From NCBI GenBank assembly GCA_937124585.1, contig CAKZKT010000146.1, forward strand, positions 1 through 64,000: DNA of 64,000 nt. Direction: 5' to 3'. Numbering within the stretch: position 1 is the first letter of the stretch; each line of letters begins with the position of its first letter. The notes beneath the pieces were generated by a model that saw only the letters and a list, made by a program, of their open reading frames with translations, did not search any database and was not told where the DNA came from. This DNA is from an uncultured Anaerolineae bacterium (GTDB taxonomy: Bacteria; Chloroflexota; Anaerolineae; CG2-30-64-16). Below are positions 8,728 through 14,853 of the stretch, piece after piece. The position numbers and the translations under genes were made by a program.

Positions 8728-11028
8728 ATGCAGAAGTCCGACAGCCTCTTCGACATGCGTCGCGCCGAGCTGACCGAGAAAGAAGCGCCCCTGGCCGCCC
8801 GCATGCGGCCGCGCACGCTGGACGAATTCATCGGCCAGGAACACATCGTGGGGCCGGGTCGGCTGTTGCGCCGCGCCATCCAGGCCGATCAGCTCAGCTC
8901 GCTCATCTTCTACGGCCCGCCGGGCACCGGCAAGACGACGCTGGCGCGCATCATCGCCAACACCACCCGCGCGCATTTCATCGCCATCAACGCCGTGCTG
9001 GCCGGCGTCGCCGACATTCGCGCGGCCATCGCCGCGGCCCAGGAGCGCCGCGGCCAGTTCGGCCAGCGCACCATCCTCTTCGTGGACGAAGTCCACCGCT
9101 TCAACAAAGCCCAGCAGGATGCATTGTTGCCGTGGGTCGAAAACGGCACGGTGATCCTGATCGGCGCAACCACCGAAAACCCCTACTTCGAGGTCAATAA
9201 GGCGCTGGTCAGCCGCAGCCGCATCTTCCAGCTCAAGCCGTTGACCAAAGAAGATCTGTACGCGGTGGCGCGCCAGGCGCTGTCCGATCCCGAACGCGGC
9301 TACGGCCGGCTCAACGTGCAGATAGACGATGACGCGCTGGAGCATCTCGTGGACGTCGCCAACGGCGACGCGCGCGGGGTGCTCAACGCTCTGGAACTGG
9401 CCGTTGAGACCACTCCGCCCTCGGCGGACGGCGTCATCCACGTGAACCTGGCCGTGGCCGAGGAATCCATCCAGCGCCGCGCCGTGCTCTACGACAAAGA
9501 AGGGGACGTCCACTACGACACCATCAGCGCCTTCATCAAAAGCCTGCGCGGGTCTGACCCGGATGCGGCGCTTTACTGGATGGCGCGCATGGTCTACGCC
9601 GGCGAAGATCCGCGCTTCATCTTCCGACGCATGATCATCTTTGCCGGAGAGGATGTCGGACTGGCCGATCCGCACGCCATTCCTTTTGTGGTGGCGTGCG
9701 CGCAGGCGTTCGATTATGTCGGCATCCCGGAAGGCCGCTTTCACCTGGCCAATGCTGCGCTCTATCTGGCGACCGCGCCCAAGAGCAACTCGGCGATGGC
9801 CTTTTTCGCAGCGCTGGAGACCGTGGAGCGAGAGCGGGAGGCCGAGGTGCCGACCCATCTGCGCGATGCCAGCCGCGACAAAGAGGGTTTTGGCCACGGC
9901 GAGGGTTATCTTTATCCGCATGCCTACCGCGACCATTGGGTGGCGCAGCAATATCTGCCCGACGCGCTGCAGGGCCGCGTTTTCTATCAGCCAGGTGGGC
10001 TGGGCTATGAGGCGCAGGTGAAAGCCGAGGTAGAGCGCCGCCGCGAGGCGCAGCTGGCAGCCATGCTGGAGGGCAGTGCCGGGTTCGGCATCCCCGAAGC
10101 GCTCACCTACACGGGCGAACTGGCGCGCGGCGACCGCGATCGCTGGCTCCAGCGCGCCATCGGCCATGCCAGCGAACAGCTGACCACACTGCGGGCGCGC
10201 GTGCTGGATGCCGCGAAGCTGCAACGCCATCACCTGGTGCTCGACCTGAACGCGGGCAGCGGCCTGCTGACCTGGGAGGCGCTGCGCCGCGTGCCAGAGG
10301 GCGGCGTCTGGACGTTGGCCGCCACGGCCGCCGAAGCCGAGGCGCTGCGCGAGATCGCCGCTCGACTGCCGGCGCTGGAACGGCCGGTCGTATTGCAGGG
10401 CCGGCCGGCCGAATTGCCCGACCTGCTGGCCCTGCGCGGCGAGTCCGACCTCCGCTTTGATGCGATCATCGGTCGCGGCGCGCTCAATCCGGGACGGCAA
10501 GCCCGCATGGCGGCAGAGGCGACCTCACCCGTCTGGCCGGCCAGAGAGGAGATCGGCCGGCTGGCCCGGCTGCTGGCCGGCCTGCTCCACGATCACGGCA
10601 TCATCAGCCTGGCCGAACCGGTACCGCGATACACGCAACGGCTCTACGCCCTGGTGGAACTGCCCCCCGCTCTGGCCGCGAAGGTGCGCGCGGCCGAAGA
10701 AGCAATCTACGCGGCGGCCGACGACCCGCTGGTGAACTGGACAGAGGACGATCTGGCGGCTGCGTTTCGGGCGGCCGGCCTGACCGAGGTCATCGTAGAG
10801 CCGGTCGAGACCAGCGCCGAGATCCGCATCAGCCCGGCTATGCTGGAACGCTGGTTCACGCCCGCGGCGACAGGCGGTCGGCTGGCCTACGTCCAGCGCC
10901 TCGCCGGTTGGCTCGATCCCGACGAGCTGGCAGACGTGGAGGCGCTCTATCGGCGCAAGCTGACCGGTGCGACGGTCCCCTGGCGCTCGGTCACCGTGTA
11001 TCTGACGGCGCGTCGCGGCCAGGGATGA
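8728..11028 (+). CDS. rarA: RarA/MgsA-type AAA+ ATPase fused to a methyltransferase-like domain
   Basis: The N-terminal half (about 1-440) is a RarA/MgsA recombination-factor ATPase, a clamp-loader-like protein acting at stalled replication forks. It has Walker A GPPGTGKT at 63-70, Walker B ILFVDE at 116-121, a sensor segment GATTENP and the family's C-terminal segment with DVGLADPHA and [12 protein letters not shown]. The remaining 320 residues have a glycine-rich SAM-binding-like motif ([10 protein letters not shown], about 503-512) and a late [11 protein letters not shown] segment typical of Rossmann methyltransferases. The total of 766 residues compares with about 450 for E. coli RarA. 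The base or protein that may be methylated is unknown. The frame is continuous, so this is a true fusion. It is probably leaderless. Confidence 0.9.
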
Positions 11029-13515: not shown

Positions 13516-13965
13516 GGTTGATTTCCCCGAACGCACAAAGAAATGCGTAATGTAATCCCCATATGGTAGATCTGAAATGTATCATAATCGTAGGCCTTGT
13601 GGAAATGTGTACAACTCTTGCTGCTGCGACAGGAGCCCCCGTATTTAGGGCGGTGTGCCGACGTAGACGCCAACGCTGGGGCAGCGTGCGGCGGGAGGTC
13701 GGTGTATTGCCTGTGCGCAAACCGCTATGGTGATATATGGTAATACGGGCATCTTTTTTGGTAAATAGACACGCTTCACTATTTGGGTTTTGATCCGCGG
13801 TTCGGTGCTCTATTTAGGGCTTGTCGGCCGGAGTCGCAGCCGGGCGCTGTGCCCTCGTCGCGGCCGGAATGTGGTGGTTGTGGATAAGTGCGCACTTATC
13901 CACAGGGATATACACACGCCGTGTGAGCGCGAGCCGCGCTTTTGGGCCGCGGGTGTCTCCGGTGG
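13516..13965. other. 450-bp divergent intergenic region with DnaA-box palindrome
   Basis: No convincing gene lies here. The region is more AT-rich than its surroundings and divides minus-strand genes on the left from a plus-strand run on the right. It holds the 26-bp DnaA-box palindrome at 13879-13904. Weaker DnaA-box-like 9-mers, each with two mismatches, lie at 13598-13606, 13606-13614 and 13908-13916. The word TATTT(A/G)GG occurs three times, near 13642, 13780 and 13811. A replication-origin function is only a hypothesis. Confidence 0.5.
13879..13904. promoter_or_regulatory. 26-bp perfect palindrome of two consensus DnaA boxes
   Basis: TGTGGATAA (13879-13887) and TTATCCACA (13896-13904) are exact consensus DnaA boxes in opposite orientation. 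The bases between them, GTGCGCAC, are themselves palindromic, so the whole 26 bp is a perfect inverted repeat. It could bind DnaA or serve as an operator for the promoter 38 bp downstream. Confidence 0.7.
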
Positions 13966-13971
13966 TATACT
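13942..13971 (+). promoter_or_regulatory. Promoter candidate for the EEP-recF gene run
   Basis: TTGGGC (13942-13947) and TATACT (13966-13971) are separated by 18 nt. This places a start about 24 nt before the ATG at 14002. Confidence 0.55.
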
Positions 13972-14001
13972 GGACGACGCTGCTCTACGGGGCAGCACTT
14001 G

Positions 14002-14853
14002 ATGTTGCAGGGAAGTTATGTGGTAGCAGATAACGCGGCGAGACAGCCGGCATCGGTGCAGTCTGTCCGCATCATGACCTATAATATCCATCGGTGGGCA
14101 GGCCATGATCGCCGGGTGGCTCTGGATCAGCTGGCAGAGATCATCCGCTCGACGCATGCCGATCTTGTGGGGCTGAACGAGGTGATTCATCCGGTCGTCC
14201 GTCGCGGTCGCACCTGGGACTATCTCGCCGAACTGGCTGCGCGCCTGCGCATGCATTTTGTCTTTGGGCCGAGCGGGTGGACGGATCATGGGCCGGACTG
14301 GTATGGCCCGCAGGGCAATGCCCTGCTCAGCCGATATCCGTTCGAGGCCGTCATTAACAGGCCATTGCCGCGGTTGCCGACGACCAAGCAGCGCGCGCTC
14401 CTCGGCGCGCGCATGGCCGCCGGCCCGGCCGCCGGTCTGACCGCCTTCGTAACCCATCTCGACCACGCATTCGAGGGTACGCGCTTGTGGCAGATCCAGG
14501 GTGTGCTCGCCGAGGCCGCGCGCTGGGGGCCCCATTTCATCGCCGGCGACTTCAACACGCCGGCCTTCGACGGACGTTATAGCCGGCACTTCTTGCCGCC
14601 TGTTCTGCGCTGGATGCGCCGGGCCGGATATGAGGACGCGTTTCACGTCGTGGGCGAGGGGATAGGCCGCACATTTCCGGCGCACGCGCCGGTCTTTCGG
14701 ATAGATTTTCTCTTCTTCCCGCGTGTCTGGGCCCAGGGGATCAGGCGGGCGCACACGTTGGACTCCGCTTCGGTGCTGCACGCGTCGGATCATCGTCCGG
14801 TCGTAGTGGATTGGGCGTGGCCCGAGCCGGCTGGTCGGCTGAGGTATATCTGA
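14002..14853 (+). CDS. Endonuclease/exonuclease/phosphatase (EEP) family protein, copy 1
   Basis: This 283-residue metal-dependent phosphodiesterase-like protein belongs to the EEP fold, which includes ExoIII, APE1 and phospholipases. It has the Asn-bearing TYNIH motif near residue 28, the metal-binding Glu in GLNEV (Glu60), THLDH, the GDFN motif and the terminal SDH catalytic His. The set is therefore complete. The substrate (nucleic acid, lipid or nucleotide) cannot be told from sequence. The ATG at 14002 is a best guess; no strong Shine-Dalgarno is present. It heads a plus-strand run that continues to recF and is about half-identical in motif layout to its neighbour. Confidence 0.85.
   Translation: MLQGSYVVADNAARQPASVQSVRIMTYNIHRWAGHDRRVALDQLAEIIRSTHADLVGLNEVIHPVVRRGRTWDYLAELAARLRMHFVFGPSGWTDHGPDWYGPQGNALLSRYPFEAVINRPLPRLPTTKQRALLGARMAAGPAAGLTAFVTHLDHAFEGTRLWQIQGVLAEAARWGPHFIAGDFNTPAFDGRYSRHFLPPVLRWMRRAGYEDAFHVVGEGIGRTFPAHAPVFRIDFLFFPRVWAQGIRRAHTLDSASVLHASDHRPVVVDWAWPEPAGRLRYI

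Follow-up and report, generated by a model that had tools for sequence, protein, structure and literature searches.

A predicted chromosomal replication origin separated from dnaA in an uncultured Anaerolineae bacterium

We identified the intergenic gap at positions 13516–14001 of the window (the whole 64-kb stretch of DNA analysed here) as very probably the chromosomal replication origin (oriC) of this bacterium, separated from dnaA; the assignment is a prediction from sequence. The initial annotation had left an origin, a DnaA titration site and an operator side by side, and the origin proved clearly the best supported of the three. The support came from an unwinding module at 13534–13614, the conservation of this module, its near-uniqueness per genome, and GC skew; the palindromic pair of DnaA boxes in the same gap would have been insufficient alone. 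Features expected of an oriC and found at the gap were a cluster of DnaA boxes, an adjacent easily melted element, and a single match in its genome (E ≤ 0.01) to R1, a sequence profile of the 14 aligned modules. Bacterial oriC is usually next to dnaA. The site in the window is not, this feature being usual rather than defining.

The window belongs to a 4.83-Mb draft genome (164 contigs, 99.8% complete) of the class Anaerolineae (Chloroflexota), and its named relatives are Anaerolineae/Chloroflexi metagenome-assembled genomes. The genes flanking the gap were as previously described: a leftward BNR-repeat gene on one side and, on the other, a series of rightward genes (EEP, EEP, methyltransferase, HIT and RecF/SMC-type). 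The features of the gap, from left to right, were as follows.

13534–13593, no strand: predicted DNA unwinding element, trinucleotides included; least stable stretch
13569–13616, + strand: R1 match, the highest-ranking of the genome and its sole match at E ≤ 0.01
13579–13593, no strand: degenerate DnaA-trio stretch; + strand read 3'→5' from 13593 as GAT GCT AAT ACT ATG
13594–13597, no strand: GC-rich spacer GCCT from trios to boxes; the 4-nt length is the same throughout the 14-genome ungapped alignment
13598–13606, − strand: DnaA box of the unwinding module, ATTTCCACA, two mismatches
13606–13614, − strand: second DnaA box, TTGTACACA, two mismatches, overlapping the first by one base
13642–13820, no strand: middle of the region, with TATTTAGG twice and TATTTGGG once; relatives have CTAGATGT here
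13879–13887, − strand: DnaA box I of the palindrome, exact TTATCCACA
13896–13904, + strand: DnaA box II of the palindrome, exact TTATCCACA
13908–13916, + strand: third box of the distal cluster, ATATACACA, two mismatches, 3 nt past box II
13966–13971, + strand: −10 element TATACT (GTGNTATACT) of the predicted EEP promoter, conserved across the 10 aligned genomes of the family
14002–14853, + strand: EEP gene (endonuclease/exonuclease/phosphatase fold), directly right of the predicted origin

Unwinding module and distal box pair

The 60-mer at 13534–13593 was the least stable of the region (−71.7 versus a mean of −94.2) and ranked second among the least stable loci of the window; AT content over 13525–13590 was 59%. 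The module lies about 290 bp to the left of the palindrome and was conserved more strongly than the palindrome. It could be aligned over 52 columns, ungapped, in 14 genomes from two families, in each case upstream of the same gene (EEP). AT content was higher over the 60 bp of the trio side than over the 60 bp of the box side in every one of the 14 genomes.

This arrangement is that of the basal unwinding system (BUS) of bacterial origins, which has been described for Bacillus subtilis; of 2070 origins, 85% are predicted to have one (PMC8287927). The rule given there combines a DnaA box with at most two mismatches, a second with at most four, a spacer of at most 16 nt and at least three NAN trios, and the distance from box to trios peaks at 10–13 nt (PMC8287927). 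The window has two boxes with two mismatches each, at distances of 4 and 12 nt from the trios (12 nt for the outer box). Its trios are degenerate in the conserved register (GAT, then GCT), and the trios that the rule calls for were found only off register (TAA TAC TAT). Three or more NAN trios in register were present in seven of the 14 aligned genomes, and relatives carried GAT five times (G009) or four times (G001) at the trio position. The order of the predicted elements, with boxes, a 4-nt GC spacer, 3'-GAT-5' trios and the melting side, fits the published polarity of the BUS.

The two exact consensus boxes of the distal cluster were confirmed to form a perfect 26-bp inverted repeat, TGTGGATAA-GTGCGCAC-TTATCCACA, at 13879–13904; chance alone would give about 0.003 palindromes of this kind per 64 kb. 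The motif TTWTNCACA occurred five times in the window versus 0.72 expected. Genome-wide, exact TTATCCACA was found 12 times and a reversed control word 10 times, and single exact boxes are thus at background level. Clustering of exact boxes was seen at two sites of the genome, with four near dnaA (C68:19450–19595) and two at the palindrome. A divergent pair of exact boxes with a gap of 0–20 nt was found once in the draft genome and in none of the nine other family genomes. A relaxed divergent pair (up to two mismatches per box, gap of 7–10 nt) was present in eight of the 10 family genomes; in 200 shuffles, the mean was 0.02 and the maximum one genome in 10. The gaps found in these eight measured 8–9 nt. 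The palindrome is therefore a conserved element, and its copy in this genome happens to be perfect. A third box with up to two mismatches followed at the same spacing in five of the eight family genomes having the pair.

The gap as a whole was relatively AT-rich (44% versus 36% for the window), as had been noted. Three further boxes with two mismatches had been reported besides the palindrome; we counted four (13553, 13598, 13606 and 13908), two of which (13598 and 13606) are part of the unwinding module. The gap region held six boxes with up to two mismatches versus 1.55 expected, and was the only place in the window with at least five such boxes per 500 bp. The 650 bp upstream of EEP contained 4–8 such boxes in every family genome (n = 10; 356 bp rather than 650 for G002, due to a contig end), compared to 0.46–1.55 expected from shuffles. 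The corresponding counts were 3–6 in five f21 genomes and 0–3 in eight other genomes with EEP homologues.

The recurring word in the middle of the gap was found three times, as first described, with TATTTAGG at 13642 and 13811 and TATTTGGG at 13780. CTAGATGT occurred within the origin region of six of 15 genomes versus 0.02 expected, and a CTATATGTGG-like word lies beside the module in several other families, the window having TATTTAGG. This recurring word may be a site for another origin-binding protein.

The sequence elements, their conservation, their near-uniqueness per genome and the skew support were observed; that the gap is active as an origin, and that DnaA binds, melts and loops it with a coupling to the promoter, is inferred. 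DnaA would bind the two overlapping boxes at 13598–13614, and the short GC spacer would guide it onto the + strand trinucleotides. It would then melt the unstable stretch to the left of the boxes (13534–13593), where the helicase would be loaded. The palindrome and the third box (13879–13916), about 290 bp away, would act as the high-affinity end that keeps DnaA at the origin, and this distal end probably loops to the unwinding end. As the distal boxes lie just upstream of the EEP promoter, whose activity is predicted from the conserved −10 element, origin firing and EEP transcription may be coupled.

Distribution of the module and GC skew

R1 matches at E ≤ 0.01 were detected in 229 of 396 Anaerolineae genomes, of which 215 were out of sample, the remaining 14 being the training genomes. 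Exactly one match was found in 206 of the 229 (hand count of the table). The window site is itself one of the 14 training sequences, so that its match is by construction, which does not apply to its being the single passing site. A weak second match in the window genome (contig C127, E 0.02) lies at an insertion sequence. The search at the level of the order repeated that of the family, as the order contains this family only.

The BUS layout was visible in 20 of 22 inspected R1 loci; the locus of G019, which is doubtful, and that of G289, which is off centre, were not counted among the 20. These 20 loci held 7–23 boxes with up to two mismatches each, over a length of about 1.2 kb. One of them, L090 (G220:C57), contained 19 exact consensus boxes in about 1.2 kb, far above the other inspected loci. 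EEP lies directly right of the origin in the family of the window genome and in five f21 genomes, and the module sits 3' of dnaA in families f16 and f45. In family f28 (L139 from G212, L205 from G350), the module was observed just upstream of a small gene read by eye as spoVS, with a gene for a long secreted repeat protein after it or nearby. Second BUS-like matches were seen in two genomes with the EEP-linked origin, at about 1880–1920 of L244 (G091:C40) and at 20–60 of L245 (G003:C192); each has only one box within one mismatch, and no obvious transposase was seen in the G003 stretch.

Weak secondary R1 matches were also observed at the ends of insertion sequences in the window genome and in G039. 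The former (L025 2048–2117, G000:C127:56047–56116) accompanies an rve/HTH_21 transposase, IS3-like by our own reading. G039 carries an IstB (IS21) element with a secondary match (L166 1480–1575) and a repeated unit with a transposase-like ORF (L126 at about 4574, L132 at about 10614), inspected at two of the 11 places that R1 scores equally. In all, three different insertion sequences had inverted tandem DnaA boxes beside the transposase gene and adjoining TAG- or GAC-type trinucleotides, which resemble those of the host origin. Such ends are possibly a way to recruit DnaA. A broader idea, which we regard as speculative and unlikely, is that the origin module of Anaerolineae is mobile: it would have left dnaA in most lineages with the box cluster staying behind, and insertion sequences carrying module copies at their ends may recruit host DnaA for replication-coupled transposition and may have seeded relocated origins.

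GC skew was assessed on the contig of the window, at the EEP-linked sites and in closed genomes. On its own contig, the 13.6-kb bin to the left of the site had a skew of −0.041, and all seven bins to the right were between +0.001 and +0.046. A cumulative minimum at about 13.9 kb had been proposed as a sign of an origin; a skew change was indeed seen near this contig end, and the minimum was at 9,645 of 104,000, about 4 kb left of the module. Skew of the whole window was discarded as proof of an origin, being too weak alone. Across the EEP-linked sites, right-minus-left skew was positive in 11 of 14 genomes, with a mean of +0.043, whereas random positions on these contigs averaged 0.020 (P = 0.0007); by the number of positive genomes alone, the difference from random positions was not significant (P = 0.30).

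The most informative closed genome was G212, which is outside the R1 training set. Its R1 site is at 0.556 Mb. The sign of its GC skew switches between 0.53 and 0.546 Mb: most values are below zero on the arc that runs from 3.0 Mb past the zero coordinate to 0.53 Mb, and most are above zero between 0.546 and 2.62 Mb. Of the 20 samples, the one at 0.35 Mb (slightly positive) and those at 0.95 and 1.476 Mb (negative) deviate from this pattern. At fourfold sites the switch was somewhat further left (0.47–0.51 Mb). An origin at the R1 site gave R2 values of 0.51 (GC) and 0.71 (fourfold sites), compared to 0.23 and 0.23 for an origin at dnaA, which lies at 1.486 Mb, 0.93 Mb from the R1 site. Skew was mixed or weaker in the other closed relatives (G350, G019, G039 and G074). 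The best origin of G350 by GC was at 3.91–3.96 Mb, near its site at 3.906 Mb, and by fourfold sites at 3.02–3.26 Mb. That of G019 was at 2.52–2.61 Mb versus the doubtful R1 match at 2.728 Mb (0.12–0.21 Mb off), and G039 gave no skew signal; G019, G039 and G074 were set aside as skew tests.

The dnaA locus and alternative readings

The dnaA gene of the window genome is on a different contig, C68 (44,356 bp). Four exact co-oriented boxes with spacings of 22, 20 and 95 nt lie 3' of it, at 19.5 kb (G000:C68:19450–19595, L001 2588–2733), and boxes within one mismatch were found there in eight of the 10 family genomes, mostly at nearly fixed spacing. This cluster, with its four exact boxes, was the first candidate for the origin and was rejected. 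R1 gave no match at E ≤ 10 at the dnaA loci of all 10 family genomes, the least stable 60-mer was milder than that of the window (−76.6 versus −71.7), and no skew change was seen at dnaA in the four contigs tested (average +0.007). An oriC elsewhere beside dnaA had been named as evidence that would speak against the window site; a box cluster does exist there, but without an unwinding module and, in the four contigs tested, without a skew change. It may serve in titration or autoregulation, or be a former origin. Families f16 and f45 have the module right beside dnaA, so that the boxes on the dnaA side may be a relic. Among the 73 genomes with both positions among the matches listed, module and dnaA were within 5 kb in 12, on one contig and at least 112 kb apart along it in nine, and on different contigs in 52, where contig breaks may hide some linkage.

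A module of trios and melting DNA is not known to be part of the DARS and datA loci of Escherichia coli, for which IHF/Fis sites and an effect on the nucleotide state of DnaA are expected. The window site resembles these loci in being a small non-coding cluster of DnaA boxes, and its box pair is divergent, whereas the DARS2 primer shown in PMC4585315 suggests, by our own reading, a convergent one. That the window locus is such a titration or nucleotide-exchange site, with the true origin beside dnaA, seems very improbable: the 3–4 co-oriented boxes kept 3' of dnaA would suit it, but that side has the deficits described above, and a titration role fits the dnaA-side cluster better than the window locus. 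It is less probable still that the two clusters form a split origin on separate chromosomal segments, both being needed for initiation. Both are conserved in the family, but they are at least about 33 kb apart, judging from the distances to the contig ends, and the dnaA-side boxes may have been left behind, as argued from f16 and f45.

The box pair might instead be a DnaA-controlled operator that regulates the EEP operon and has no part in initiation. Clear EEP orthologues were present in all 10 family genomes, and the pair lies upstream of EEP in eight of them, about 60 bp upstream of the conserved −10 element, next to a left-hand gene that is not conserved. This reading explains neither the skew nor the elements at a distance of 290 bp (unstable stretch, trios and tandem boxes), and the same module occurs at other genes elsewhere (in f28 upstream of the spoVS-like gene, in f16 and f45 on the 3' side of dnaA). 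Conservation of the palindrome solely as an EEP operator, suggested at the outset as a counterargument to an origin, is thus at odds with the position of the module in other families, and we consider an operator without a role in initiation highly unlikely; a dual role as operator and origin is possible. The palindrome was also considered as a unique operator and this was discarded, as inverted TGTGGA/TCCACA pairs with gaps of 6–20 were near the control level genome-wide (26 versus 23; 10 genomes, hand sum of forward columns), so that only the position-conserved pair matters. The left-hand gene and recF were not conserved neighbours of EEP in the flanks examined. A link through recF, in which the origin would have stayed with the recF of a dnaA-dnaN-recF operon, was likewise dropped, recF being near EEP in none of nine relatives in these flanks.

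Relation to known origins and significance

Origins of the BUS type are already known, as are origins located apart from dnaA. With the B. subtilis-type BUS (PMC8287927), the predicted origin in the window shares tandem boxes, a short spacer rich in GC, 3'-GAT-5' trios whose strand is the expected one, unstable DNA past the trios, and a spacing within the published range. It differs in the one-base overlap of its boxes, its degenerate trios (GAT GCT AAT ACT), its location away from dnaA and the palindromic box pair about 290 bp off. The oriC of E. coli is likewise separated from dnaA (PMC8287927), and that of Synechococcus elongatus is near dnaN and away from dnaA (PMC7198777); unlike in either, the neighbours of the predicted origin are the EEP gene and the BNR gene.

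No characterised origin from Chloroflexota was found in the literature searched. The present prediction locates an origin with single-base precision in a lineage where looking beside dnaA, as is usual, would give the wrong contig. R1 provides candidate origins in more than 200 Anaerolineae genomes, mostly draft assemblies. These candidates could allow growth rates of Anaerolineae genomes to be estimated from peak-to-trough coverage, and they make the relocation of the origin across one class testable.
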